NCBI GenBank assembly: GCA_030424715.1
Contig: JAUHWH010000004.1
Location: 158,437 to 222,436, forward strand
Origin: Bdellovibrionia bacterium
Lineage (GTDB): Bacteria > Bdellovibrionota > Bdellovibrionia > Bdellovibrionales > JAGQZY01
Direction of reading: 5' to 3'
Length of the DNA: 64,000 nucleotides
This document shows, one piece after another, positions 39,165 through 57,901 of this stretch. A program made the position numbers and the translations under genes. The first letter of the stretch is position 1, and the number at the start of each line of letters is the position of its first letter. Below the pieces are notes generated by a model that worked only from the letters and a program-made list of their open reading frames with translations, had not been told where the DNA came from and did no database searches.

Positions 39165-39752
39165 ATGAATTATCTCATTGCTCTTGTTTGTCTATTTACA
39201 TTCAATATGGCCCATGCCCAGCCCAGCTGCTCTTACACCTTCGATGTCGATAGCGCAAAAGTCGAAGGCACCGGTTTTAAATATACGGAGAAGGTGGGCG
39301 TGAAGGGACTCTTCCCGGGTTTCAAACTGAGCAAAAATGAAAAGGCGCCTTCGGTACAAAAACTGTTAGAAGGCCTGGTTGTGACTGTTGACCTAGTGAC
39401 CTTGGATTCTGGAAATGCTTTGCGCGATAAGAATATGCGGGAGACCTTGTTCTCTGGAATCGTGGGAGACTCCGTGGCCACGGTAGAGGTCTTGTCCGTC
39501 ACTGCTGATTCCATCGAGACCACTTTGAAAATCAATGAAAAGAGTGAAAAAGTCATTTTTAATTATCTAATTAAGAACAACGTAGTCGTTGCAAAAGGCC
39601 AGTTCGATGCCGTGAAGTTTGCTTTGGGTGATCAAATCGCGGCTTTGAAAAAACGCTGTGGCTCTTTACACACCGGATCCGATGGCAAGAGCGTCACCTG
39701 GACCGACTTTGACCTCATTGTAACGGCTCCCCTCAAAAAGGTTTGTCAGTAG
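39165..39752 (+). CDS. Secreted YceI-like protein
   Basis: The ATG at 39165 has GGAGG 7 bases before it and gives 195 residues with a signal peptide ending near AHAQ. The lipocalin-like pattern CSYTFDVDSAKVEGTGFKYTE, then VDLVTLDSGNALRDKNMRETLF and SVTADSIETTL, matches the YceI fold, which can bind polyisoprenoids or other lipids. It lacks the clear HGVTKPV-type segment of typical YceI. Its position between the PilZ protease and a MATE exporter gives no firm role. Confidence 0.75.
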   Translation: MNYLIALVCLFTFNMAHAQPSCSYTFDVDSAKVEGTGFKYTEKVGVKGLFPGFKLSKNEKAPSVQKLLEGLVVTVDLVTLDSGNALRDKNMRETLFSGIVGDSVATVEVLSVTADSIETTLKINEKSEKVIFNYLIKNNVVVAKGQFDAVKFALGDQIAALKKRCGSLHTGSDGKSVTWTDFDLIVTAPLKKVCQ

Positions 39753-41473: not shown

Positions 41474-42514
41474 ATGCAGGACAACGATCAGATTCAATTC
41501 AATCCTTTTTTACAGGTGATGAACCAGCAAATTTTGGACACAGTCCGTGCCCACGGCCATGGGCAGTTGCGAGAAATGGTTTTGACCCATTTTAACTGTT
41601 CCGGAAAGCAACTGCGCCCGAAAATGATCTCTGCCCTCGGCCAACTTTTAAAAGTGCAAGAGGAGCATTTGGTCTGTTGGGCGGCTTGTTGTGAGATCTT
41701 GCACAACGCCACCTTGATTCACGATGATTTACAGGACGGCGATTTGTATCGACGGGGGGAGCCCACGATTTGGTCTCGCTATGGTCAGTCTGAAGCAATC
41801 AATGTGGGGGACTTTTTACTACTGCTGGCTCCTCGCCCAATTTTAGAGAGCTCTTTGGATGACGATGTGGTTCGTGAGTTGTTGAACCTCTATTCGTTGA
41901 TGTCGGCTCAAATTGTGAACGGGCAAAATTTGGAATTTGAATTGAATCAGTTAAGTGATCTTGATTCTTTGGAGAGCACTTATCTTTCTTGTATCGCTCA
42001 AAAGACTTCGGCTTTGTTTGCCGGTGTTGCGACAGGGGTGGCGTATCTGGCAAGACTCGGTGCTGAAGAGCGAGAGCAAGTGCGCCAATTGTTTGAAAAG
42101 ATCGGCCATGTTTTTCAAATCCAGGATGATATCCTTGATCTTTGGGGCGACAAGCAGCGCCATGAAATGGGTTGCGACATCAAAGAGGGCAAGGTCAGCT
42201 TTTTGATTGTAAAGCACCTGCTTCGACACCCGGTTGATCGATCATTGTTTCGGTCGGTATTGCTGAAGCCCAGAGACCAGACTTCTATCGACGAGGTGGA
42301 GTCTCTCAAAGCTTTGATGTTCGAGCGGGGCACCCTCGACGAAGCCCTGATTGCCATGAACAGCATGATTTTAAACCTGCAACAGTCGCCGGTTCTGGAT
42401 CGAGCTGAAGGTTTAGCAGCTTATGTCCGTGACTTACTAACTGACATCTTGCGGCCTATTGAGCATCTGTCTTTGCAGCCGAAAGAAGCCTCTCAGGAAC
42501 GTGTGACTTTGTGA
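41474..42514 (+). CDS. crtE: Geranylgeranyl diphosphate synthase (trans-prenyltransferase)
   Basis: The 346-residue polyprenyl synthase has GKQLRPKM, first Asp-rich motif LIHDDLQDGDLYRRG, second Asp-rich motif FQIQDDILDLWGD and the KEGKVSFLIV segment. Given the crt genes downstream, it most probably makes C20 GGPP for phytoene synthesis. The chain length is not proven. It is the first gene of the carotenoid operon; GTGA joins it to the ABC ATPase gene. Confidence 0.9.
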   Translation: MQDNDQIQFNPFLQVMNQQILDTVRAHGHGQLREMVLTHFNCSGKQLRPKMISALGQLLKVQEEHLVCWAACCEILHNATLIHDDLQDGDLYRRGEPTIWSRYGQSEAINVGDFLLLLAPRPILESSLDDDVVRELLNLYSLMSAQIVNGQNLEFELNQLSDLDSLESTYLSCIAQKTSALFAGVATGVAYLARLGAEEREQVRQLFEKIGHVFQIQDDILDLWGDKQRHEMGCDIKEGKVSFLIVKHLLRHPVDRSLFRSVLLKPRDQTSIDEVESLKALMFERGTLDEALIAMNSMILNLQQSPVLDRAEGLAAYVRDLLTDILRPIEHLSLQPKEASQERVTL

Positions 42515-43401
42515 CGGGTTCCATGAAAGCTCTTGAATTTCAATCGGTTTGCAAAAGCTTTGGTTCCGTCGAGGCCATTAAAGAATTGAATTTTTCTATC
42601 GAAAAAGGCGAGTGTGTTGCTCTCCTCGGGAGTAACGGTGCCGGTAAATCCACTTTCATTAATTTAGCCGCAGGAATCCGCCGTCCCGATCGGGGGAAGA
42701 TTTCCATTTACGGCTCCAGTCCTGGGTCCCTAGAAAGCAAGCAGCATATGCGTATTCTCACCCAAGAGTTGAGCTTTCCCTCTCAGCTCAAAGTGAAAGA
42801 GGTTCTTGCCTTGGTTGCCGGTCACTACAATTCTTTTGATTTCTCCCGTTTTGTTGCCAGTTTGGATATCGAACATCTCCTTTCGCGAAATATTCAAGGA
42901 TTAAGTGGTGGAGAAAAGAAGCGGGTCGGTATCATATGCACTCTCATCGGAAGCCCCGAGCTGATTCTCCTAGATGAGCCCACTTCGAATATTGATTTGC
43001 GAGGCCGGCACCTGGTTTATGAAACCCTCAAAGAGTTTTTAAAGGAAAAAAAACGTTCTCTGATCTTCTCCTCCCATCAGATGCAAGAGGTGGAGTTTCT
43101 AGCCGACAAAATCTTTATTCTTAAAAGGGGAGAGATTGCGACTAGCGGAACCACAGCCGAGGTCAAAAGTCGGTTTGGCCTTAAAAAAGTCAGCTACCGG
43201 TCGCAACGCAGCGATATCTCTATTGCTGCGGCGAAAAAGAAAATAGCTGAGGGTGATCGTTTTTCTCTTCTGGGACGTAATAGTGATGAGATGTTAAAAG
43301 AATTGCTAGCAAAAGACTCTGGTGTTTTTGATGTGACCATTGCTGAGCCATCGTTGGACGAAATTTTTATGAAAATCTGGGACGAGGGTGAGGGACAATG
43401 A
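42511..43401 (+). CDS. ABC transporter ATP-binding protein in the carotenoid operon
   Basis: The 296-residue ATPase carries Walker A (LLGSNGAGKST), signature LSGGEKKRV, Walker B (LILLDEPTSN) and switch His (FSSHQMQEV). The C-terminal extension of about 80 residues is typical of type-A (ABC-2) exporters such as CcmA/NatA-like. It overlaps crtE (GTGA) and the permease (ATGA), so it is part of the operon. The start at GTG 42511 may instead be ATG 42523. Substrate unknown; a carotenoid or lipid is a reasonable guess. Confidence 0.88.
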   Translation: MTGSMKALEFQSVCKSFGSVEAIKELNFSIEKGECVALLGSNGAGKSTFINLAAGIRRPDRGKISIYGSSPGSLESKQHMRILTQELSFPSQLKVKEVLALVAGHYNSFDFSRFVASLDIEHLLSRNIQGLSGGEKKRVGIICTLIGSPELILLDEPTSNIDLRGRHLVYETLKEFLKEKKRSLIFSSHQMQEVEFLADKIFILKRGEIATSGTTAEVKSRFGLKKVSYRSQRSDISIAAAKKKIAEGDRFSLLGRNSDEMLKELLAKDSGVFDVTIAEPSLDEIFMKIWDEGEGQ

Positions 43402-44132
43402 GCTTGGTTTTTCTACACGCCCGCTGGATGATTCTTGAGCTGTTGCGCCAACCCAGCTATGTTGTTTCTACGGTGTCTTTTCCGGCCCTGTTTTATGTCA
43501 TCTTCGCATTGCCAGAGTCTAAAGATGTCGCGTCTTCGAACTTGCTGATGGCCTCTTTCAGTTGTTTTGCCGTTTTTGGAGTGATCTTTTTGCAGTTTGG
43601 GGTTGGAATCGCCCAGGAGAGAACTCGCACTTGGTATCACTATTTGCGCACTTTGCCCGTCGCCGGCGGGCACCTCATGGCGGCTCGCTTCTTGTCGGCG
43701 TTGTTTTTCTCCGTACTAGCGGCATTGAAGATTGTTATTTTGGCACTGATTTTTACAGAGGTGGAGTTGAGCGCCTTCGACTGGGTTCGTTTTTGTTTTT
43801 TTCTATTGATGGGGGGGCTATTGTTTTGTCCCATGGGCTTGTGCCTTGGGTATTGGGCCAGTGAAAAATCCTCTTTGCCATTGGGGAACTTGATCTATCT
43901 CCCCTTGTCCTTTGCTGGAGGACTTTGGAAGCCGCCAGCCGCTTTACCCTCTTTGCTGAAGGATGTGTCGGACTATCTGCCCACCCGTCACTACGGAGAA
44001 GTCATTTGGTCGGTTGTCGATGGCAAGCCGGTGCCGCTGCAGAGTGTTTACTTTTTGTTAGCCTTCGGCCTTCTCTTTGCTTTGGTGGCCTTTATGGGGT
44101 CTTTGCGGGACTACCGAGCGAGGTTTGTGTAA
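43398..44132 (+). CDS. ABC-2 type transporter permease
   Basis: The 244-residue protein has six hydrophobic segments in the ABC-2 arrangement and a conserved central loop (QERTRTWYHYLRTLPVAGGHLMAARFL), as in NodJ/DrrB-type permeases. It pairs with the ATPase gene that overlaps its start by 4 bases. The next gene begins immediately after its stop. Probably exports a hydrophobic product across the inner membrane. Confidence 0.85.
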   Translation: MSLVFLHARWMILELLRQPSYVVSTVSFPALFYVIFALPESKDVASSNLLMASFSCFAVFGVIFLQFGVGIAQERTRTWYHYLRTLPVAGGHLMAARFLSALFFSVLAALKIVILALIFTEVELSAFDWVRFCFFLLMGGLLFCPMGLCLGYWASEKSSLPLGNLIYLPLSFAGGLWKPPAALPSLLKDVSDYLPTRHYGEVIWSVVDGKPVPLQSVYFLLAFGLLFALVAFMGSLRDYRARFV

Positions 44133-44909
44133 ATGACTTTGAGTCACTTTGAACAAATGGAATCTTATATTCCCATCGACCTCTTGTCTTGGCAGGGGCT
44201 ATTGGCAGCCAATGCTGTCATCCTTGTTTTTATAGTGGCACGCTACTTTATGTTTGTCGGTATGTTCTATTTTTCATTTTGGAAGCAAAGATTTCTTGCT
44301 ACCCGTTTGGATTATCTTCACGACCAAAAAACACGGAAAGATCAAGTATGGGTTGAGATCCGCTGGTCGCTGATATCAAGTTTCATCTTTGGTTTTTCCG
44401 GGTATCTCATTGGTGTCCTGTGGCAGTTGGGGTGGACCCAGCTTTATTTGCCCTATGACCAATACACCCTTTTCTATTTGCCGTTAAGTTTTGTGATCTT
44501 CAGCCTTGTGCATGAAGTCTATTTCTATTTCACCCATGTTTGGATGCACCATCCCCGTGTTTATCGTAAAATTCATGCCGTTCACCATTTCTCGGTCAAG
44601 ACCAGCCCCTGGGCCTCCTTTTCTTTTCATCCTGGTGAGACCCTGGTGCACGCCCTGTTTCTACCGGTCATGGTTTGTTTGGTTCCGATTCATCCTGTGG
44701 TTTTAATTGCCTATTTAACTTTTATGACATTGACCGCGATATCGAATCACCTTGGTGTCGAACTGATTCCGTCGCGGGTTTTTCAAAAATACTTTATATC
44801 GGGCACACACCACTCGATTCACCACAGTCAATTTAACTATAACTACGGTTTGTACTATCGGTTCTTGGATCAGTGGATGAAGACAGAGAAAATGGAGAAG
44901 CATTTATGA
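44133..44909 (+). CDS. Fatty-acid/sterol hydroxylase superfamily membrane di-iron enzyme
   Basis: The 258-residue protein has four hydrophobic segments and the eight-His pattern: HEVYFYFTHVWMHH, HAVHHFS, and GTHHSIHHSQFNYNYG. This family includes sterol C4/C5 oxidases and other integral di-iron hydroxylases or desaturases. In the middle of a crt operon it may oxidise a carotenoid or its lipid partner, but crtZ already supplies the ring 3-hydroxylase, so the reaction is uncertain. It is joined to crtI by an ATGA overlap. Confidence 0.82.
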   Translation: MTLSHFEQMESYIPIDLLSWQGLLAANAVILVFIVARYFMFVGMFYFSFWKQRFLATRLDYLHDQKTRKDQVWVEIRWSLISSFIFGFSGYLIGVLWQLGWTQLYLPYDQYTLFYLPLSFVIFSLVHEVYFYFTHVWMHHPRVYRKIHAVHHFSVKTSPWASFSFHPGETLVHALFLPVMVCLVPIHPVVLIAYLTFMTLTAISNHLGVELIPSRVFQKYFISGTHHSIHHSQFNYNYGLYYRFLDQWMKTEKMEKHL

Positions 44910-46372
44910 AAGCGACAGTGATTGGATCTGGTTTTGGCGGCTTGGCGGCCGCGGTCCGACTGATAAAAAAAGGCTACGAAGTGACCATACTGGAGGCTCG
45001 TGATCAATTGGGCGGCCGGGCGGGCGTGTTTAAACAAGACGGCTTCACTTTCGATGCGGGGCCAACGGTGATCACGGCTCCTTATTTAATCAATGAGCTC
45101 TTCGAGTTGTTGGATGAAGACCCGAAAGACTATTTTAAACTTTTACCAATAGACCCCTTCTATCGCATCCGCTTTGATGACGGCTCGTCCTTTGATTATG
45201 TTGGGGATGAAGATCGTATTTTGGAGAATGTTGCCAAGCTCAGCCCACAAGATGTGGATGGCTATCGTAAGCTAGCAAAGCACGCCCAAGACATTTTCGA
45301 CGTTGGCTACACTCGGTTGGCTGACGAGCCCTTTGATAGCTTAAGCTCAATGTTTCGCGTGGCTCCGGACATGATTCGTCTACAGAATTATAAGAGTGTG
45401 TATTCTTTGGTGTCGAAATACATTAAGGATGAACGCCTTCGTCAGGTTTTCAGCTTTGAACCTCTATTGGTTGGCGGCAACCCCATGAAAATTACTTCGA
45501 TTTACCTGCTGATCCATTGGTTAGAGCGCAAATGGGGTGTCTTTTTTGTAGAAGGGGGCACCACGGCCTTGATCAGTGCCTTTGAGCGTTTGTTGCGCAA
45601 GAAGGGAGCTCATATTCATATGAACGCTTCGGTCGAAAGAATCGAAGTCGAGAACCACAGTGTTAAAAGAGCCATCACTGCCGATGGACGAATCTTTGAA
45701 TCCGATGTCATCGTTAGCAATGCCGATCCGGTGCGGGTGTATCGTGATATGATCGACAACAAACATCGCAGTAAGCACAGCGACCTGCGCTTGAAGATGA
45801 AGTCGCAATCCATGAGTCTGTTTGTTGCTTATTTCGGGACTAAGAAACTCTACCCAGATATTGCCCATCACACAGTTCTTATGGGGCCACGCTACAAGGG
45901 TCTTCTGTCTGATATTTTTGATCGTAAAGTCCTTGCCGATGATTTTAGCCTCTATCTCCATGCGCCAACCCGAACCGACGCCAGTTTGGCGCCCCCGGGC
46001 CATGAGTGCTTTTACGTCTTATCTCCCGTTCCTAACAATGATGGGAAGATTGATTGGGAGAAAGCACAACAAGAATACAAAGATCGCATTTATCACTGGC
46101 TCGACAAAAACTATTTGCCTGGTTTGGTGGACAATATGGTGACCGATGTGCATGTGACCCCGCAGTACTTCGAAAAAGAGTTACAAAGTGAGAAGGGGGC
46201 GGCTTTCGGAATCGAACCCTCTTTTCGACAGTCGGCTTATTTTCGTTTTCATAACGAGTCAGAAGATGTGGACAAATTGTATTTCGTTGGGGCGAACACC
46301 CATCCCGGAGCAGGCATCCCTGGAGTTCTCAACTCAGCAAAAGTTCTTGAAAAGGTGATTCCACGGTGCTAG
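44906..46372 (+). CDS. crtI: Phytoene desaturase CrtI
   Basis: The 488-residue FAD enzyme starts at the ATG overlapping the preceding stop (ATVIGSGFGGLAAAVRLI dinucleotide-binding loop, EARDQLGGRAG, FDAGPTVITAP). The C-terminal crt-family signature reads YFVGANTHPGAGIPGVLNSAKV. It introduces double bonds into phytoene, probably four to give lycopene. The last 7 bases overlap crtB. Confidence 0.95.
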   Translation: MKATVIGSGFGGLAAAVRLIKKGYEVTILEARDQLGGRAGVFKQDGFTFDAGPTVITAPYLINELFELLDEDPKDYFKLLPIDPFYRIRFDDGSSFDYVGDEDRILENVAKLSPQDVDGYRKLAKHAQDIFDVGYTRLADEPFDSLSSMFRVAPDMIRLQNYKSVYSLVSKYIKDERLRQVFSFEPLLVGGNPMKITSIYLLIHWLERKWGVFFVEGGTTALISAFERLLRKKGAHIHMNASVERIEVENHSVKRAITADGRIFESDVIVSNADPVRVYRDMIDNKHRSKHSDLRLKMKSQSMSLFVAYFGTKKLYPDIAHHTVLMGPRYKGLLSDIFDRKVLADDFSLYLHAPTRTDASLAPPGHECFYVLSPVPNNDGKIDWEKAQQEYKDRIYHWLDKNYLPGLVDNMVTDVHVTPQYFEKELQSEKGAAFGIEPSFRQSAYFRFHNESEDVDKLYFVGANTHPGAGIPGVLNSAKVLEKVIPRC

Positions 46373-47307
46373 CCACAGAGAGCATTCTCCGACAGTCCTC
46401 AGAAGAAGTTTTGGCCGAACACGGACAGTCTTTTTATTTTGCAAGCTTGGTGTTTAGTAAAGAGCAACGACAGCGGGTGGCAGAACTCTATAGTTTTTGT
46501 CGTTATGTGGACGATTGCGCGGACGAGCTCAAGCACGACGAATCGGTGCTAGCCTTGCAACAATTGCAAAAAGAATTGCAGGAGCCCCCGGGTTCTCAAA
46601 CGCGCTTGCAAAAAAGGATTTCAGACCTAGAGGCCAACGGGGTCACTCGAGAGCATATGAATGAGCTCCTAAAGGGGGCCCTTTTTGATGTGCAAAAAGA
46701 GCAAGTGCTCTATGACGGCGACCTGGCTTTGTACTGCTACCGAGTGGCCGGAGTTGTGGGTTTGATGATGTGTCCTTTGTTGGGGGTGCAAGACAAGCAG
46801 GCCTATCCCTACGCCATCGATCTCGGCTTGGCCATGCAACTGACCAATATATGCCGTGACGTTCAAGAGGACGCGCAAAACCAAAGGCGCTACCTGCCGC
46901 TGGAAGGTCTTGAGTTTTCAGACTTAGATACATTAGATTTTGTAGAAAAGAAGGCGGCTCCCGAGGCGCTCAAACACCGGGTGCGGCGCTACCTTAATAT
47001 TGCCGACTTGTTTTATGAGAGTGGCTACAAGGGGCTGGCCTACATCCCGTTGCGCCCTCGCCTTTGTATTTTGATCGCGGGCGAGGTGTATCGGAGTATC
47101 GGTCGCAAAATCCGTCAGAAAAATTATGAGGTTTTGCGAGGGAGAGTGTACTTAACCCGATGGGAGAAGGTGGCTGTGGTTTTTCGTTCTCTGCCTCGAT
47201 TGTTACGCAAGAGTTTTTGGGTAAAATGCGGGGACCATGAAAATGAATGGCATCAACACCTGGCTGGCTTGCCAGGGGTTGCCGAGGAGAGTCGTGTCGT
47301 ATCTTGA
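46366..47307 (+). CDS. crtB: Phytoene synthase CrtB
   Basis: The 313-residue squalene/phytoene synthase has AEHGQSFYFAS, first Asp motif YSFCRYVDDCADE, YCYRVAGVVG and second Asp motif TNICRDVQEDAQNQRRYLP. It condenses two GGPP to phytoene. The GTG start lies inside the end of crtI. Its last 14 bases overlap the cyclase gene. Confidence 0.96.
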   Translation: MLATESILRQSSEEVLAEHGQSFYFASLVFSKEQRQRVAELYSFCRYVDDCADELKHDESVLALQQLQKELQEPPGSQTRLQKRISDLEANGVTREHMNELLKGALFDVQKEQVLYDGDLALYCYRVAGVVGLMMCPLLGVQDKQAYPYAIDLGLAMQLTNICRDVQEDAQNQRRYLPLEGLEFSDLDTLDFVEKKAAPEALKHRVRRYLNIADLFYESGYKGLAYIPLRPRLCILIAGEVYRSIGRKIRQKNYEVLRGRVYLTRWEKVAVVFRSLPRLLRKSFWVKCGDHENEWHQHLAGLPGVAEESRVVS

Positions 47308-48019
47308 TTTTCTGTTAATTTTTCTGATTCCACCGATCTTACTGGGCAGTAGGAACTACCTTCGCACTCAGCACGAGCACAAGCGAATGATCGGCTTTGG
47401 TATTCTATTGCTTACGGTGTTGGCCGTTGTCTACACCACTCCCTGGGACAACTATTTGGTGAAAACAAAGGTTTGGTGGTACGGAGCGGACCGAGTGATC
47501 GGTGTGATTGGCTATGTTCCCATCGAGGAATATTGTTTTTTTGTTTTGCAAACTATCATGAGTGGATTTCTTTTTTTCTATCTGCAGCAAAAGATACCGA
47601 TTCGCAAGCAGCCCTCCGCACGGCACAGGCTCAACACCGCCGTTAGTGTTTTCTATATAGCCTTGTTGGGCTTTGGCGTTTATGGATTGTTTAACGAGTC
47701 GCTACGGTACATGGGGCTGATATTGAGTTGGGCCATGCCGGTGCTCCTTTTTCAATGGCTGATCGGCGGGCGTTATCTCTTGGCCAATGGCAAACTGTTT
47801 CTAGTTTCTCTGGTCACTCCAACGCTGTATTTATCATTGGCTGATAGCTATGCCATTGCCGATGGTATTTGGGCTCTTTCGGAGCAGCAGACCACGGGGC
47901 TGACTTTTGGAGTGCTCCCTATTGAGGAGGCGACCTTTTTTCTGGTGACCAACGCCATGCTGCTGCAAGGACTCTTGTTATTTGTGGCAATGGAAGATAA
48001 ATTTTTTAAAAGGACTTAG
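47294..48019 (+). CDS. Lycopene cyclase, CrtYcd/CarR-type fused
   Basis: GTG 47294 is chosen (GAGGAG 4 bases before); the open frame extends to 47237 without a better site. The 241-residue protein has six to seven helices and two lycopene cyclase domains, with VPIEEYCFF in the first and LPIEEATFF in the second (PxEE motifs), and WWYGADRVIG. This heterodimeric-type cyclase, also known from actinobacteria, myxobacteria and fungi, converts lycopene ends into rings, probably beta. It is unlike the CrtY/CrtL flavoprotein of proteobacteria. It lies 3 bases before crtZ. Confidence 0.9.
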   Translation: MSYLDFLLIFLIPPILLGSRNYLRTQHEHKRMIGFGILLLTVLAVVYTTPWDNYLVKTKVWWYGADRVIGVIGYVPIEEYCFFVLQTIMSGFLFFYLQQKIPIRKQPSARHRLNTAVSVFYIALLGFGVYGLFNESLRYMGLILSWAMPVLLFQWLIGGRYLLANGKLFLVSLVTPTLYLSLADSYAIADGIWALSEQQTTGLTFGVLPIEEATFFLVTNAMLLQGLLLFVAMEDKFFKRT

Positions 48020-48022
48020 CTG

Positions 48023-48475
48023 ATGTGGTGGATCGTTTTTTTAGGAACATTTGTGTGGATGGAGTGGGCGGCCTGGTTTCTCCATAAGTATGTGATGCAC
48101 GGTTTTCTGTGGATACTCCACAAGGACCATCATCAAAGAGTGAAAGGTCGCGTGTTCGAGTGGAACGATTTTTTTGCGGTGTTTTTCGCCGTTCCCAGTT
48201 TTCTTTGTATTCTGTTTGATAGCATTTACAACTGGCCTTTGTTGGGCGCCTTTGGCTTTGGCATCATGGCCTACGGATTCGTTTATTTTTTGGTGCATGA
48301 GGTGATTATCCATCGTCGGATCAAATCCCTGAAGTTCTCCAGCAACTGGTACTCCAAAGGCGTGAACGCCGCCCACAAGGTTCACCACTCCGTCCTTGAA
48401 AAAGAAGGCGCAGAGAATTTTGGAATGCTGGTGGTCCCTCTCAAATACTTTCGCCTGAAATCGTCAAAGTCATAA
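48023..48475 (+). CDS. crtZ: Beta-carotene 3-hydroxylase CrtZ
   Basis: The 150-residue membrane protein has the di-iron His motifs HKYVMHG, HKDHHQ, HEVIIHRR and HKVHH, spaced as in CrtZ (fatty-acid-hydroxylase superfamily), and matches the short length of that enzyme. It hydroxylates C3 of beta-rings, turning beta-carotene into zeaxanthin via cryptoxanthin. It is the last gene of the operon. Confidence 0.94.
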   Translation: MWWIVFLGTFVWMEWAAWFLHKYVMHGFLWILHKDHHQRVKGRVFEWNDFFAVFFAVPSFLCILFDSIYNWPLLGAFGFGIMAYGFVYFLVHEVIIHRRIKSLKFSSNWYSKGVNAAHKVHHSVLEKEGAENFGMLVVPLKYFRLKSSKS

Positions 48476-50021: not shown

Positions 50022-51251
50022 ATGCCTCAAATATCCGCCCACTGTAAAGCCTTAAACAATACTCTCGAAAAGATGGACTGTTCCGGTGAGATGAAAGCTC
50101 TACTGAAAACACCCCAGCGTGAGCTAATAGTTGAACTGCCCTTAAAAAAAGATGACGGAAGTATCGCTATTTTTAAGGGCTATAGAGTCCAAGACAATAA
50201 CTCACGAGGCCCATACAAAGGCGGGCTCCGGTTTAATGAGAATGTGGACCTGGATCACTTTCGAGACCTTGCGTCCGTGATGACGTGGAAAACAGCTCTT
50301 GTCGACATCCCATTTGGTGGCGCTAAGGGTGGGATCAGCTGCAACCCGAAAGACTTAAGTGAAAATGAATTAGAGACTCTCACCAAGCGCTTCATTGAGA
50401 AAACTTCTATGCTCTTTGGCCCTTCTCTCGATATACCAGCGCCTGATATGGGGACCGGGCCACGAGAAATGACTTGGCTGATGAGTGCCTTTGAAAAACT
50501 TCATGGCTATTCTCCTGGAGCCGTAACCGGGAAGCCTGTTGAATTTGGAGGGATTGAAGGCCGAGTGGAGGCCACGGGCAAGGGGGTTGCTCTATTCACC
50601 AAGTGGGCCTGCGAAGAGGAAGACATTGACCTTTCGAGTCGCCGGGTGGCGATCCATGGGTTCGGAAACGTCGGTTCACATGCGGCGATGATTCTATCGG
50701 AAATGGGAGCTACAATTGTTGCTGCTAGCGATGCCTCAGGGGGCTGGTATAATCCCAAAGGTCTCGACATCACAGAACTAAGATCAGAGCAGGGGAAGGA
50801 GTTTGCCGACCGAGAGATCGAGGGGGAAAAGATCTCCTCAAGCGATGTTCTATCGATAGATTGTGATATTTTGATTCCTGCGGCAATTGAAAATACACTA
50901 ACAAAAGACAACGCGAACTCGGTGAAGGCTAGGCTTATTGTTGAAGCGGCCAATTTGCCGACGACAACAGAAGCCGAGGAAATTCTAGAAGAAAAAGGAG
51001 TCACAATCGTTCCCGATATTTTAGCTAATTCTGGTGGAGTGACGGTCTCATTTTTTGAGTGGGCTCAAAACAGTCAAAATTTCCCTTGGAAAAAAGAAAA
51101 AGTCGATCGCGAGCTCGAGAGTCTTTTAAAATCCGCTTGGAACAATCTGGTGCAAAGCCGAACAGAGGCAAAAGAGAGCTATCGTCAAACGGCCTACGAT
51201 ATTGCGATCAATCGGGTGAGGGTGGCTATGCTAAAAAAAGGTTTTAGATAA
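50022..51251 (+). CDS. gdhA: Glutamate dehydrogenase (NAD(P)-dependent, hexameric type)
   Basis: The 409-residue protein has the Glu/Leu/Phe/Val dehydrogenase layout: PYKGGLRFNENVD, catalytic Lys102 in FGGAKGG with Lys90 before it, DIPAPDMGT, and a Rossmann loop VAIHGFGNVGSHAA. Its length is typical of the GDH50 class. It interconverts glutamate with 2-oxoglutarate and ammonia. An AAGGAGAG lies 4 bases before the ATG. Cofactor choice cannot be decided by eye. Confidence 0.94.
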   Translation: MPQISAHCKALNNTLEKMDCSGEMKALLKTPQRELIVELPLKKDDGSIAIFKGYRVQDNNSRGPYKGGLRFNENVDLDHFRDLASVMTWKTALVDIPFGGAKGGISCNPKDLSENELETLTKRFIEKTSMLFGPSLDIPAPDMGTGPREMTWLMSAFEKLHGYSPGAVTGKPVEFGGIEGRVEATGKGVALFTKWACEEEDIDLSSRRVAIHGFGNVGSHAAMILSEMGATIVAASDASGGWYNPKGLDITELRSEQGKEFADREIEGEKISSSDVLSIDCDILIPAAIENTLTKDNANSVKARLIVEAANLPTTTEAEEILEEKGVTIVPDILANSGGVTVSFFEWAQNSQNFPWKKEKVDRELESLLKSAWNNLVQSRTEAKESYRQTAYDIAINRVRVAMLKKGFR

Positions 51252-52325: not shown

Positions 52326-52868
52326 TTATTTGAAATCGTAACTCAAAAAACCAGCGGGTTCACTTGAGCAGAAACTTCCTATGACATGAGTGAACTGAGT
52401 CACATCATGTGCTGACAATCCCATGGTTGATAGGTGAGACACCGCGTGACCTTGGCAGAGTCTTCCAATCCCAGCGTAAGCTTTTGGAATAACGAACTCG
52501 CTTAGCTTTTCCAGCCAAGACTGCTTTGGGTCTTCGTTGACTAGAATATTACAAGAAAAGGTGTCATCAATTGTCATACAGTGTGCTGTTAAAAGATCAC
52601 TTTTCCAACTGTTATCGGTGCCCTCGATGCGAGTAAATTCGATAAGCCTATTTTTTTCTCCAATGAGAACTTCTGGAAAGACGTAAGAGATTTTTTCTGT
52701 TTCAGGGCCTGTAAAGGCATCGACAATCTGCACGATAAACCGGGAGTGGCCAATCAGCTCAGGTTCTGAGGGGACTATGTAAACGGCCTCAGTCTCGGTC
52801 TCTCCTTTTTTAGCTTGAGAAGCCAGTGGTAAAAGCATCAATAAAATGGTTGTTAGAATAAGTTTCAT
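52326..52868 (-). CDS. Secreted protein of unknown function, end of the cytochrome gene run
   Basis: ATG 52868 (AGGGAG 5 bases before) starts a Sec signal MKLILTTILLMLLPLASQA. The mature part of about 160 residues is beta-rich with four or five Cys (AHC, SC, LCQGH, SFC). Upstream in-frame codons (to 52934) are unlikely. It follows the haem barrel gene after 86 bases on the same strand. No recognised family. Confidence 0.7.
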   Translation of the reverse strand: MKLILTTILLMLLPLASQAKKGETETEAVYIVPSEPELIGHSRFIVQIVDAFTGPETEKISYVFPEVLIGEKNRLIEFTRIEGTDNSWKSDLLTAHCMTIDDTFSCNILVNEDPKQSWLEKLSEFVIPKAYAGIGRLCQGHAVSHLSTMGLSAHDVTQFTHVIGSFCSSEPAGFLSYDFK

Positions 52869-52954
52869 TGTTATCTCCCTTGTTTTTAAGTTAGCAAAAT
52901 CTTTATAAAAAGTCATATGTTTTGGTGTTTTCAAACTCTAATGTTTTCAGCAGC

Positions 52955-54031
52955 TTACAAATAGAAATGCATCATAAGCCACGCATAGTCTCCCTCATCT
53001 GGCCCTCTGGCCAATTGCTTTCTTTTCATGAACACACCTTGAATTTCAAAATGAGGTCTTGGAAAAAGCGTCAGCCCAAGCCCATACATCGACTCAGTTG
53101 AGTTTTCTTGAGTGATATCCGTTTTTTTAATGTCTCCAAGTGCAATCAAGTGAATGCCTTTTTCGATTTCATATCCAAGCTTTGTAAAGTGAAAAAGTCC
53201 GCCTTGTTTTCTTCCTGGTATGGGCTCTGAATCTCTAAAGACGGTGTCAGTTATAAGATACAGTTTTTCAGTAAAGCCTAGCAGTCCATGCACACCAACT
53301 GAAAACTCCTTAGCTGCCTTGGTTTTCTTTTCAAAACTGAGACCAACTTTATCATGTGACCCAAAAGAGTAATTAAACTGTGAATAAAAGCCAGAGGCTT
53401 CAGATTCATCTCTCAATTTTCCTGAGGTCACAGCAAAGGAAAGGTCCCATTTGCTTTTTGTGTACTGAATCTCAGCAGTATTTCGTTCGGTTTGGAATCC
53501 AAACCCAAGGGGGCCTCGTGTTGATAGCACGTGTTCTGGCGTGTTGATACCAAACCTTGGAATAAACCGCCCAAGCCTAATGTTTAAAGACTCTGTTAAA
53601 GAGGTTAAAAAATAAAATTGAGAGATGTACCAGGGGCGACTTTCTTTTAAGGTGTTTGAACTTCCAGTGATATTAAGCCACGTGTTCTTGATTTTAGCCG
53701 CTAGCTCGACTTGCTCTTGCATTTCGATGAACCGACCAATGGTAGCTTGAGAAGTTTTGGAGTGAACTTGCACGGCTCTAAAGTCTCCACCAACCTTCAG
53801 CCATTCCGGTGTTTTCTTTAAGGCTCCGTAATGCCAGTTTTCCTCGCCTTCATAGCCCCAAGTACTTAACACCTCTTTACTTAAAGCCCTCCCATAATCC
53901 GTCATCATACCGCCTCCGCGAGGGCTTGCATGACAGGTCATACAATTATTATAGCCGTGCCGGATCATTTGAGGAAATGACCAGGCATTGAAGCTAAGAA
54001 ACGTTACTAATAGAGTTGGAAGAGTCTTCAC
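52955..54031 (-). CDS. Outer-membrane beta-barrel with N-terminal c-type haem motif
   Basis: The 358-residue protein has a signal peptide (about 1-18), then a single haem-binding motif CMTCH (Cys30, Cys33, His34) in the setting NNCMTCHASPRGGGMM.DYGR. A long porin-like series of amphipathic strands follows and ends WLMMHFYL. The same haem-SP-GGG-YGR start occurs in deltaproteobacterial cytochrome-like outer membrane proteins. A haem joined directly to a barrel suggests electron passage or haem sensing at the outer membrane. Gap of 7 bases to the YceI gene, so the same transcript is likely. Confidence 0.8.
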   Translation of the reverse strand: MKTLPTLLVTFLSFNAWSFPQMIRHGYNNCMTCHASPRGGGMMTDYGRALSKEVLSTWGYEGEENWHYGALKKTPEWLKVGGDFRAVQVHSKTSQATIGRFIEMQEQVELAAKIKNTWLNITGSSNTLKESRPWYISQFYFLTSLTESLNIRLGRFIPRFGINTPEHVLSTRGPLGFGFQTERNTAEIQYTKSKWDLSFAVTSGKLRDESEASGFYSQFNYSFGSHDKVGLSFEKKTKAAKEFSVGVHGLLGFTEKLYLITDTVFRDSEPIPGRKQGGLFHFTKLGYEIEKGIHLIALGDIKKTDITQENSTESMYGLGLTLFPRPHFEIQGVFMKRKQLARGPDEGDYAWLMMHFYL

Positions 54032-54038
54032 TAAAAAC

Positions 54039-54617
54039 CTACTTTGCCTTTTTTGCCAATGATTCTTTTGGCTTTTCAGAAATTTTAGATGAAACCTTTA
54101 CGGTCACTTTATCGGCGACTGTAACTCCCATAAACGATGGGATCTCAATTTTAAAGTCAGATATTTTGATTTCAAAAGAAGAATCGACTTGGCCATTATC
54201 ATCAATTTTTGCCTTTAGAGTGACTGGGCGACTTTGTCCATGAATTGTCAAAGTGGCAGGGATTTTTTTACCTGAAAACTTTGGTGAGCTGGGGGACCAT
54301 TTCTCAACTTTATAATCTTTTATCTCCAGTGTCGCTTTAGGGAATTCTTTTGTCTTAAGGTATTTCTCTTTCATGTGCTTATTTCTAAGAGACATTCCTG
54401 TGTCTAAAGAATTGAGATCAACAAAGATCTTTGCGTTCATTTTTCCACCGCTAACTGAGATCTCTCCTTCAGGCCCACTGCCTTTTCCATTGATTTTTAA
54501 AAACCCTGGATTTCCAACAGCTAAAAATTCAGTTTTACCGTTCTTTAGTTCTAAGTTCATACTTGAAAAAGCAAAGCTCGGTACAAATATTGTTAAATAT
54601 AATAATGCTCTCATCAT
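54039..54617 (-). CDS. YceI-family periplasmic protein
   Basis: The 192-residue protein has a Sec signal and a clear YceI lipocalin-like fold: VDLNSLDTGMSLRNKHMKEKYLKTKEFPKATL, ATLTIHGQSRPVTLKAKI and FKIEIPSFMGVTVADKVTVKV. YceI proteins bind long isoprenoid chains or quinones. It sits between a two-haem cytochrome lipoprotein (10-base gap) and a haem barrel (7-base gap), so it may carry a quinone- or lipid-type partner. Confidence 0.9.
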   Translation of the reverse strand: MMRALLYLTIFVPSFAFSSMNLELKNGKTEFLAVGNPGFLKINGKGSGPEGEISVSGGKMNAKIFVDLNSLDTGMSLRNKHMKEKYLKTKEFPKATLEIKDYKVEKWSPSSPKFSGKKIPATLTIHGQSRPVTLKAKIDDNGQVDSSFEIKISDFKIEIPSFMGVTVADKVTVKVSSKISEKPKESLAKKAK

Positions 54618-54627
54618 GATTTCTCCT

Positions 54628-55350
54628 TTATCTTGGGGCTCCGATGTCTATCCATCTTAAAAGTGTTGTTCTTTCTATTTGATTTAGAGGAGGGCGTGGT
54701 GGAAGGGGCATTCTCCCTTCAGAGACTTCCTCATAAATGTCGTCGATTTCATCGACTGTATTAAAATAAGTTTCTAGGTTGAGCCCATCGGCATTGCCGC
54801 CTGCTGTTGAATGACAGGCAAAACAGCGAAACTTAAAAATTTTATTTCTCACGAGCTCATAAGTGATTTCACTATCTGGCGGAACTTCAGTGAGTGGTTC
54901 TTCGATGGGGTCTAACGGATCTGTTGGTTCACCATTTCCAGGATTATCAGGGTCGCAGTTTCCTCCGCCAGCTCCAGTATTGGGTGCCCCGGCATCAACC
55001 CAGGCAATCACCAAGTCTTTTTCGGCTGGTGCAAGAGGAGGATTGGGTGACTTTGGCATTGTGTTATTGATGACTGCAAATTTGATCTGTGAGGCCCAAG
55101 TTCTTGCCGAGGCGAAGGTCGATAGGTTGACTCCTCCGGAACTTGCGCCGTTTCCATGACAACTGAAACATCTTGGCTGAAAGACCTGCGACTTCACTTG
55201 TTCAAATGTAATTCCAGGCCCTGCTCCGGTATCGCCAGGGGTGCAGGTGCCTTGACCTTGTTCAGCACCAGGGCCAGTGGGCAGGTCGTGATAAGCGGCG
55301 TAATCACATGAGATGGTTAGTAAAAAGAAAAACCCAATTAATTTCCTCAA
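54628..55350 (-). CDS. Two-haem c-type cytochrome lipoprotein
   Basis: The 240-residue protein begins with a short lipoprotein signal (lipobox TISC, Cys15). Two homologous cytochrome c units follow: CFSCH at 61-65 with MP.SPNPPLAP, and CFACH at 176-180 with MPLPPRPPL. Each is followed by a LLRWIDIGAPR / LVIAWVDAGAP end. An acidic Pro/Asp-rich linker separates them. The units resemble planctomycete-type cytochrome C domains with a Met ligand. It is probably an envelope electron carrier; partners are the haem barrel and YceI gene downstream. Confidence 0.88.
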   Translation of the reverse strand: MRKLIGFFFLLTISCDYAAYHDLPTGPGAEQGQGTCTPGDTGAGPGITFEQVKSQVFQPRCFSCHGNGASSGGVNLSTFASARTWASQIKFAVINNTMPKSPNPPLAPAEKDLVIAWVDAGAPNTGAGGGNCDPDNPGNGEPTDPLDPIEEPLTEVPPDSEITYELVRNKIFKFRCFACHSTAGGNADGLNLETYFNTVDEIDDIYEEVSEGRMPLPPRPPLNQIERTTLLRWIDIGAPR

Positions 55351-55417
55351 AAGTCCCCCTTTTGTTTTTGAAAAGTTTTAGAGGCTCAAATAAAGAGCCT
55401 CCAAATTTTTTCAGATT

Positions 55418-55744
55418 TTATTGAGCTCTACAGACAACCTCTTTCTTTAAGACTGTGCCGCCCTTTGACCAATCGTCAAAACGAACACAAGTGTAGGTAA
55501 TCGCAGAACCATCATCCATTGAGATCGTTACTACGGAGTCATCTGGAGTTTGTGAAACGACGGTGGCATTTTGAACCATGTCTTTCATCGCAGGATTTAC
55601 TCTTACGAAATGCTCGAGAGACTCTTCGAGAGACTCGGAAACAAATCCAGCCTGACTGTTCTTGAAAACTAGGTTTCCTCCACCTTTAGCGAATGCAAAT
55701 TGTGAAAGACTCATAATTGTTAAAGCTAATACTAGTTTTTTCAT
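55418..55744 (-). CDS. Small secreted protein, first gene of the cytochrome run
   Basis: The 108-residue protein has a clean Sec signal ending AFAK; an AAAGGAG ribosome binding site precedes the ATG by about 6 bases. The mature region is about 88 residues with two Cys and a beta-rich end (SAITYTCVRFDDW). No recognised family. It is divergent from the TPR/winged-helix regulator (115-base gap) and 67 bases ahead of the cytochrome gene. Confidence 0.7.
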   Translation of the reverse strand: MKKLVLALTIMSLSQFAFAKGGGNLVFKNSQAGFVSESLEESLEHFVRVNPAMKDMVQNATVVSQTPDDSVVTISMDDGSAITYTCVRFDDWSKGGTVLKKEVVCRAQ

Positions 55745-55799
55745 TTTTTTCTCCTTTGTTTAGTTATCAACTTGAATCCAAGATAGCCAAGCTCAGCCC

Positions 55800-55828
55800 T
55801 TGCTTCCACGAACACTAGTTGTTATAAA
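55800..55828 (+). promoter_or_regulatory. Putative promoter of the TPR/winged-helix regulator
   Basis: TTGCTT (55800-55805), 17-base spacer, TATAAA (55823-55828). The predicted start of transcription near 55835 falls within the tandem repeat at 55831-55850. On the other strand, TTGGCT with a 16-base spacer and GATAAC lies at about 55760-55790, for the divergent cytochrome run. Confidence 0.45.
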
Positions 55829-55830
55829 AT

Positions 55831-55850
55831 GTTGCGTATTGTTTCGTATT
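55831..55850 (+). repeat. Tandem 10-bp direct repeat at a regulator start
   Basis: GTTGCGTATT and GTTTCGTATT are contiguous and match at 9 of 10 positions, one DNA turn apart. They lie between the probable -10 and the ribosome binding site GAGGGG. This is the layout of OmpR/PhoB-type direct-repeat boxes, so autoregulation is plausible. Confidence 0.5.
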
Positions 55851-55859
55851 TGAGGGGTT

Positions 55860-57599
55860 ATGAATTCAAAATTAAGATACTTTGAGGGAGACTACGAGTC
55901 CGCCTCAAAGGGGAAAAATGATTTGGTTTCAATAGCTTATAAGATAGCTGGACTAATTTTCACCGGACAACACCAAGAAGCTAGGCTATTGGCTAAATCC
56001 TATGAGAGTAAGCTGAGTCAGGATTCACTGGCCGTCGCCTATTTTCATTTGGGCCTAAGTTACACGAGGACTTCGGACTATTCGAAGGCGCAAGAGTATT
56101 TTGTTAAAAATCTTAGTCTTGTGAGAAACGAAAAACTAAGTAACGAGTCCCAGTTTTTTGCTTACCAAGGGGCAAGCTTTTTTCGGTTCTTTTTCTCCCG
56201 TCATAAAAAAAGCCAAGAGCTTGCAGAAAAAGGCTATCGCGCTCTTTTAGAGCTAGAGAACCCTCCAAGTTTACTTCTTGGACTTTCACTAGATATTCAG
56301 GCTCATAATTTGATTCAGCTTGGGCATGTTAACCGGGGCATTAAGGTTTTTGAGAAAGCCTTGGATGTAACGAAGAAGTCAAAACTAACTGATTTATTCT
56401 CAGAGATTGAGATTTCACATCTGCTTTATCATAGTGAGTTTGATCCTGATTTAAATAAACATATTGATGTTCTTCTTAAGTATTTAAGAAAAAGTAAGAA
56501 TAAAAACGATTATTCTAGATCCGAAATCGTTTTACAAATATCAAAGCTGTACTTTCTAATGGGAAGGTTTCAAGATTCAAGTGAGTTTTTAAACCAGCAT
56601 TTTGATGTCGTCTATAAAAACCAAAACAAGCGAAAAATTGCCTTACTCAATACATTAATGGCTCAACTTGTTATACAAAAAGGACAGTATCTCGAAGCCC
56701 TATCTATTATTAGTGTTGCACTTTCACAACTTAACCCTAGTGTAGATAAAAGCCTCTACCTCCCTCTTCTTGGTCTAAAGATTAAAGCATTAAAATATTT
56801 AGGCAAACCAGCGCATGACGAAATTGAAGAGTCTAAGCTCGTGGCTCTTAAAGTGGATCGAACAATCAATAAAAACATTCAAGATCGACTTAATGGAGAA
56901 TTACAGTCTCGAAAAATTGGTGACGATAAAATAGCCGATATCATGGACAGGGTGAGAAAAGAAGACCTTACCGTGATAAAGGAGTTGCTAGGGTACCAAT
57001 TTCTTTATCCGGTCCTTGAGCTTTATAGGCTCACCCCAGGGAAACAGTATATCGTGTTTTTGGAAAAGACCGGTACGATATTGCTAGTAAGTAATTCAGC
57101 AATAAAAAATGTTGGCAAAGGGTTTACCAGAACTCAAGTTAAACTGCTTAACTGTCTTAGTGAGGGGTCTCAATCAAAAGAAAAACTAATTTCTAAAGTT
57201 TGGGGGTACGGCTACGATCCTCTTAGACACGACTCTCTTATTTACACCTCAATAGCGCGGCTGCGAAAAATATTATCCCCATTTGGACAATGGATTCATG
57301 CAGATGAAGACTCTTACAGTCTTGATTATAACGTCGAAATATCGATTCCGGAAGGTCTTGAAGAAAAGTTGGTTAAAAACTCTGAAACGCCATCAGTAAA
57401 AATTAAAACTCAGGACCTTAATCACCGGCAATTGAGTTTTTTGGCTGAAGGGGCTGATTTTCCTGTTAGTGTTAGCGAGTATGGGAAAGCGTGGAAAGTC
57501 ACAAGGATGACAGCCCTTAGAGACTTGAGAGAACTGAATGTTAAAAATCTTGTTGTAAAGATTGGACAAGGGAAGGCTACTAGATATTTACTTATTTAA
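55860..57599 (+). CDS. TPR-rich regulator with OmpR-type winged helix
   Basis: The 579-residue protein has no signal. Residues about 1-370 are TPR-like helical repeats (for example VAYFHLGLSYTRTSDYSKAQEYF). At about 425-500 an OmpR/PhoB-type DNA-binding domain occurs (FTRTQVKLLNCLSEGSQSKEKLISKVWG, then HDSLIYTSIARLRKIL). The last 60 residues resemble a second winged helix (VSVSEYGKAWKVTRMTALRDLRELNVKNLVVK). It is AT-rich like the divergent secreted/cytochrome genes, which it probably controls, as inferred from position. The signal it senses is unknown. Confidence 0.8.
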   Translation: MNSKLRYFEGDYESASKGKNDLVSIAYKIAGLIFTGQHQEARLLAKSYESKLSQDSLAVAYFHLGLSYTRTSDYSKAQEYFVKNLSLVRNEKLSNESQFFAYQGASFFRFFFSRHKKSQELAEKGYRALLELENPPSLLLGLSLDIQAHNLIQLGHVNRGIKVFEKALDVTKKSKLTDLFSEIEISHLLYHSEFDPDLNKHIDVLLKYLRKSKNKNDYSRSEIVLQISKLYFLMGRFQDSSEFLNQHFDVVYKNQNKRKIALLNTLMAQLVIQKGQYLEALSIISVALSQLNPSVDKSLYLPLLGLKIKALKYLGKPAHDEIEESKLVALKVDRTINKNIQDRLNGELQSRKIGDDKIADIMDRVRKEDLTVIKELLGYQFLYPVLELYRLTPGKQYIVFLEKTGTILLVSNSAIKNVGKGFTRTQVKLLNCLSEGSQSKEKLISKVWGYGYDPLRHDSLIYTSIARLRKILSPFGQWIHADEDSYSLDYNVEISIPEGLEEKLVKNSETPSVKIKTQDLNHRQLSFLAEGADFPVSVSEYGKAWKVTRMTALRDLRELNVKNLVVKIGQGKATRYLLI

Positions 57600-57814: not shown

Positions 57815-57901
57815 TGGTACCGACGGCGAGACTCGAACTCGCACAGTATTGCTACCGGGGGATTTTGAATCCCCTGCGTCTACCAATTCCGCCACGTCGG
57901 C
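57815..57901 (-). tRNA. tRNA-Leu (anticodon CAA)
   Basis: The 87-base cloverleaf has acceptor arms GCCGACG / CGTCGGT (G1-U72 wobble), D-loop AATTGGTAGAC, anticodon stem GGGGA / TCCCC with loop TTCAAAA (anticodon CAA), a long variable arm as in class II tRNAs, and T arm GCGAG TTCGAGT CTCGC. The gene encodes ACCA at the end. Its 3' end faces the AT-rich accessory block, the orientation expected for islands inserted at tRNA genes. Confidence 0.95.

Follow-up and report, generated by a model that had tools for sequence, protein, structure and literature searches.

The question raised by this locus is whether a run of exported haem, YceI and beta-barrel genes facing a divergent regulator works as one envelope redox module under local control. 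The window that we analysed is a stretch of 64,000 nucleotides from a Bdellovibrionia bacterium, and positions are given in it unless another locus is named. The sequence-only reading had described five minus-strand genes for exported proteins and a regulator gene diverging from them, and all of these open reading frames were present (Table 1), the export signals of the five proteins being assigned by eye. The three middle genes, said to lie 7 to 10 bases apart, are separated by 10 bp (cytochrome and YceI) and 7 bp (YceI and barrel), with sec1 at 67 bp from the cytochrome gene and sec2 at 86 bp from the barrel gene; for sec2, the ATG at 52868 is a more likely start than the TTG at 52934. A 7-bp hairpin separates sec1 from the cytochrome gene, so that a single transcript spanning the five genes is not a given. 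Terminator-like sites at the cluster, taken overall, and sigma-70 promoters showed no excess over shuffled sequence. Searches of Pfam gave no match for the barrel, sec1 or sec2, and the YceI protein scored 83.9 bits with PF04264 against a curated cut-off of 23.7.

Table 1. Features of the haem-porin locus and of its divergent promoter, in window coordinates
Feature	Position	Strand	Basis
sec1, exported, 108 aa, function not assigned	55418-55744	minus	ORF
Di-haem cytochrome c lipoprotein (predicted lipidation), 240 aa, TTG start	54628-55350	minus	PF13442 E 4e-8; CFSCH, CFACH and lipobox LTISC in sequence
YceI-family periplasmic lipocalin, 192 aa	54039-54617	minus	PF04264 E 2e-23
Cytochrome-porin (barrel), 358 aa, GTG start: signal peptide, one CxxCH haem segment, predicted 16-strand barrel	52955-54031	minus	ORF, homologues, predicted structure
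CMTCH haem-attachment motif of barrel, residues 30-34	53930-53944	minus	invariant 109/109
Barrel His167, in the long loop joining strands 5 and 6 (L3 position of porins), candidate for the distal haem ligand	53531-53533	minus	kept 108/109; role inferred
sec2, small exported protein, 180 aa	52326-52868	minus	ORF; homologues in relatives
Hairpin between sec1 and cytochrome gene, possible terminator or attenuator	55381-55401		hairpin scan
20-bp tandem direct repeat TGTTGCGTAT-TGTTTCGTAT, candidate operator of regulator	55830-55849	plus	repeat comparison
Divergent TPR and winged-helix regulator, 579 aa	55860-57599	plus	ORF, Pfam; divergent homologue in 16/108 loci

Comparison with related loci reduced the conserved core from five genes to three (di-haem cytochrome lipoprotein, YceI and CxxCH porin), with the divergent TPR-winged-helix regulator present in some relatives. 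The exact five-gene order was not conserved in other Bdellovibrionota, sec1 and sec2 being lineage-specific. In 71 of 108 distinct barrel loci the gene immediately upstream of the barrel, and on its strand, encodes YceI, most commonly with a 4-base overlap, and a same-strand cytochrome was found within 2 kb of the barrel in 78 of the 108. A simple scan detected a lipobox in 51 of 69 partner cytochromes. The genome that contains the window carries a second cytochrome-YceI-barrel operon on contig 8, in which the cytochrome has three haem motifs, and in one relative (locus L055) the two partners are fused into a single protein that combines a YceI domain with a lipoprotein signal and one CxxCH cytochrome segment. 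In a second branch (genus g16) the barrel is kept and YceI and a cytochrome are often nearby, but in other orientations.

The flanking genes of the window were not shared with the compared relatives, so the cytochrome-YceI-barrel unit is kept in differing contexts. Together with the coming and going of sec1 and sec2 between lineages, this would agree with the view that the exported genes are unrelated and lie side by side by chance. We consider that view extremely improbable, since many genera have the core, in varying contexts, and this genome, with only five YceI genes, has it twice, and since two chance adjacencies would be expected at about 2e-6 for an assumed 3000 genes. A further YceI-family gene of the window, at 39168-39752, has neither a cytochrome nor a haem-porin beside it. 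The GC content of the cluster is 0.404, compared with 0.463 and 0.483 in its flanks, while the clusters of relatives have a GC content near that of their own flanks; AT-richness is thus not common to them. An integrative island at the tRNA-Leu gene (57815-57901) was considered and rejected, because no attachment-site repeat was found and the relatives' clusters are not AT-rich.

A protein search of 60 genomes recovered barrel homologues in 43, including the genome of the window, and a profile search (E 1e-10) found the family in 223 of 369 Bdellovibrionota genomes, corresponding to 154 of the 235 of good quality and to 102 of 182 genera. The best 80 barrel loci of a named genome collection mostly had Bdellovibrionota or Oligoflexia titles; some were titled only Deltaproteobacteria or Proteobacteria, and one was a short Vicinamibacteria contig. 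Searches of plasmids gave no match to the barrel or to a protein with the Cyc2 motif. The earlier claim that the barrel carries its own haem motif held, as CxxCH was present in 109 of 109 aligned homologues, which argues against a chance occurrence. Loci of the named collection had been found with patterns that include the motif, and conservation in that set is therefore biased; the unbiased set consists of the 41 sequences of the protein search, made without motif patterns, and all 41 have CxxCH. Residues Y27, G39, Y46 and G154 were also invariant in the alignment, and H167 and M104 were each kept in 108 of the 109 sequences.

An AlphaFold model of the barrel, built with 37 homologues (pLDDT 85.8, pTM 0.83), predicted 16 strands spanning residues 78-357 and a less certain N-terminal segment. 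The solved structure closest to this model was OprO (Z 24.0, rmsd 3.0, 286 aligned residues), followed by OprP (Z 23.6), with other 16-strand porins close behind. The only long loop of the model (residues 157-182, between strands 5 and 6) takes the L3 position of classical porins and contains H167, and we propose H167 or M104 as the distal haem ligand. A solute-selective porin fold, whose pore the haem segment may plug, also suits a different role, that of a gate or sensor haem in an uptake porin of the OprO/OprP type, outside any electron path. We regard this as very unlikely; it leaves unexplained why a multi-haem lipoprotein and YceI so constantly accompany the barrel.

A single N-terminal CxxCH haem segment on a predicted 16-strand, OprO/OprP-like porin is also the architecture of Cyc2, an iron oxidase that works inward, for which OprO and OprP are the reported structural templates (PMC8406198). 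Cyc2 is defined by AXPXFAR[Q/K][T/Y], CXXCH and PXL and by a length of at least 365 aa (PMC8406198). The barrel family has an A, a P and an R equally spaced before the first haem cysteine, but it has FPxMxRHGY, within AFPxMxRHGYxxCxxCHxSPxGGGxLTxYGR, in place of PXFAR[QK][TY], and no PXL after CXXCH (ASPRGGGMMTDYGR follows the CH in the window barrel). At 358 aa the window barrel is below the length cut-off, while some homologues are longer, and its partners, YceI and a di-haem lipoprotein, are a further difference. Searched as a DNA pattern, the Cyc2 motif was absent from this genome and present in 2 of the 369 genomes of the phylum. Alignment of the barrel with the two Cyc2-motif proteins of the phylum by hhalign gave 74 and 77%, carried by the N-terminal segment, and without signal peptides the probability fell to 17-21%, within the range of control cytochromes of the ordinary type (up to 26%). 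A bona fide Cyc2 was rejected, as motif and length fail and the profile similarity is at control level without signal peptides. The barrel appears to be Cyc2-like in architecture and not a Cyc2, with common ancestry unproven because of this drop to control level. A more distant CxxCH barrel, at positions 448-1704 of locus L164 and beside a two-haem cytochrome, has ARPEYAAREKNSCTSCH, looks nearer to the Cyc2 motif and may be an intermediate type.

The proposed use of an outer-membrane barrel and c-type haem for electron transfer is shared with MtrAB, PioAB and MtoAB; theirs, however, is a 26-strand barrel with a separate decahaem protein, whereas here 16 predicted strands and one haem motif are in the same chain. 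An MtrAB-type conduit was ruled out, as MtrB_PioB (PF11854) had no match in the genome and none in the barrel. Homologues of MtrA and MtrB, and not of the barrel family, have been described in magnetotactic Bdellovibrionota in a 2026 paper (PMC13200544).

Examination of the divergent promoter pointed to local control. Allowing up to 3 mismatches, the tandem repeat TGTTGCGTAT-TGTTTCGTAT had no second match in the window, and allowing up to 2 it had none in the genome; it stands 85 bp ahead of the first exported gene. The relatives G002 and G004 both have TGTTTCGTAT twice at the same place of the promoter. Across 17 distinct regulator promoters, 14 have a tandem repeat of period 10, the sequence of which differs between lineages, and none of the other periods from 7 to 25 was found in more than one. 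As a control, 118 upstream regions were scanned and 10 had a period-10 repeat, 8 of them being those same intergenic regions, approached from the gene on the opposite side. Four promoters (window, L033, L154 and L163) place the repeat 84-86 bp from the first exported gene. Three promoters (window 55745-55859, L033 and L163) have the sequence TTCGTGG shortly downstream of the repeat, at a similar distance in each; it is possibly a promoter element. From these sequence comparisons, the 10-bp tandem repeat is a strong candidate for the operator of the regulator.

The regulator resembles those of the OmpR/PhoB type by a possible Trans_reg_C-like domain and by the layout of its candidate site, since OmpR-like sites consist of two 10-bp tandem halves in 20 bp. 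The domain match was just below the cut-off in the window (E 1.9e-5, 25.1 bits against 26.2) and reached it in the L033 homologue (26.2 against 26.2). The regulator differs from that type in having a TPR region in place of the receiver domain and, in some members of the family, a second HTH-like match at the C-terminus.

Two relatives helped to place sec1 and sec2. Of the 60 genomes searched, only 3 others had a sec1 homologue; in two of these the gene follows a near copy of the repeat, and in the third it follows a period-10 repeat of a different sequence. Homologues of sec2 are neighbours of the module in L033, L034 and L038, and in L154/L155 they follow sec1. G002 and G004 each contain one further site, with 2 mismatches; that of G002 (L154) is located 86 bp before a separate sec1-sec2 operon, and that of G004 precedes the same gene pair. 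This second site led us to revise the view of sec1 as an arbitrary neighbour, and suggests that sec1 and sec2 are probably in the predicted regulon. The best PDB match of a fold search with sec2 had an E of 0.14, which does not by itself point to a new fold.

That the regulator is not restricted to redox genes is seen in genome G047, in which a member of the same family and a repeat precede sec1, then a PgaA-like barrel and a polysaccharide deacetylase-like gene, with no haem genes; the regulator-sec1 pair can thus head a non-haem envelope operon. In this locus (L163, 1719-6643) the regulator gene diverges from the sec1 homologue that heads the PgaA-like export operon, and sec1 may be a general companion of the regulator.

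Of the earlier proposal of an envelope redox module under local control, the recurrence of the cytochrome-YceI-barrel order in the phylum at large and once more in the window's genome, the invariant CxxCH of the barrel and a candidate operator in the divergent promoter were found; electron exchange itself we infer. There is, in our estimate, an even chance that the module works as an electron conduit of the envelope, with a small dissolved molecule as redox partner. The porin would be located in the outer membrane with one covalent haem on its N-terminal segment, either on the periplasmic side of the barrel or plugged into it, and H167 of loop L3 or Met104 may be the second haem ligand. A small dissolved partner would exchange electrons with this haem, the di-haem lipoprotein would relay them through the periplasm, and the YceI lipocalin would carry or present an isoprenoid, possibly a quinone, linking to the respiratory chain. 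The regulator would bind the tandem repeat and control the module and the sec1 and sec2 proteins. Flow inward, to terminal oxidases, would be the likelier direction by analogy with Cyc2.

We favour the conduit because the barrel is phylum-wide with an invariant CxxCH and recurring YceI and cytochrome neighbours, because of the second operon and the fusion in L055, because 16 strands are predicted with the Cyc2 templates as best matches, and because the genome encodes a cytochrome c assembly protein and two haem-copper oxidases. Its regulation by the divergent gene is argued for by a repeat that is unique in the genome, keeps its place in two relatives and has a period of 10 in most regulator promoters, and by the second site before sec1-sec2 and the similar gap in four promoters. 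Against it, one haem alone may be insufficient across the membrane, and, as regards its own regulator, a recognised divergent regulator is present in only 16 of the 108 loci, and the contig 8 operon has no period-10 repeat.

The same anatomy would serve for electron disposal, in which the lipoprotein and then the porin haem would pass electrons of the respiratory chain on to a soluble acceptor, and porin-cytochrome conduits are known in both directions. Outward flow is nevertheless unlikely, given the two haem-copper oxidases and the inward direction of Cyc2, the closest architecture (PMC8406198).

The main rival to a conduit is an antioxidant role in the envelope. YceI lipocalins with bound octaprenyl compounds or ubiquinone-8 have been reported, and a YceI-cytochrome b561 pair, BcnA-LcoA, guards against lipid peroxidation (PMC9113575). 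By this analogy, reduced quinone borne by YceI would quench lipid peroxyl radicals, the di-haem cytochrome would re-reduce the quinone, and the haem-porin would do the same chemistry at the outer membrane. A YceI lipocalin and a cytochrome are in one operon, and sometimes fused, in the barrel loci too. However, the cytochrome here is a c-type lipoprotein and not an adjacent b561 membrane protein, and the invariant partner, a haem-bearing porin, is absent from the BcnA system, so that we hold this role to be possible but doubtful.

A fuller version of the conduit, to which we give about the same limited credence as to the antioxidant role, would be a Bdellovibrionota-wide lineage of cytochrome-porins with an origin separate from that of Cyc2, in which haem would be ligated by loop-L3 His167 inside the barrel and coupled to respiration through a lipocalin-borne quinone and the di-haem lipoprotein, drawing electrons from soluble external donors that, in predators, would include prey.

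As the sequence-only reading had suggested, the module appears to be undescribed: no description of the gene set was found in the literature searched, which largely excluded subscription papers, and its novelty is provisional. The barrel family is present in about 60% of the sampled Bdellovibrionota genomes yet fails the published Cyc2 motif and length filters, which suggests that outer-membrane haem-porins are commoner than searches with markers indicate. Haem ligation and regulation can be approached directly through the L3-histidine proposal and the 10-bp repeat, respectively. Elsewhere in the window, a glutamate-dehydrogenase-like gene (50022-51251) shares about 41% identity with its nearest matches and contig 15 carries a second copy; being a divergent paralogue, the window gene failed as a measure of horizontal transfer. 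A plus-strand run at 41474-48475 resembles a carotenoid-synthesis cluster, with genes named by eye as polyprenyl synthetase, an ABC exporter pair, hydroxylases, phytoene desaturase, phytoene synthase and lycopene cyclase.
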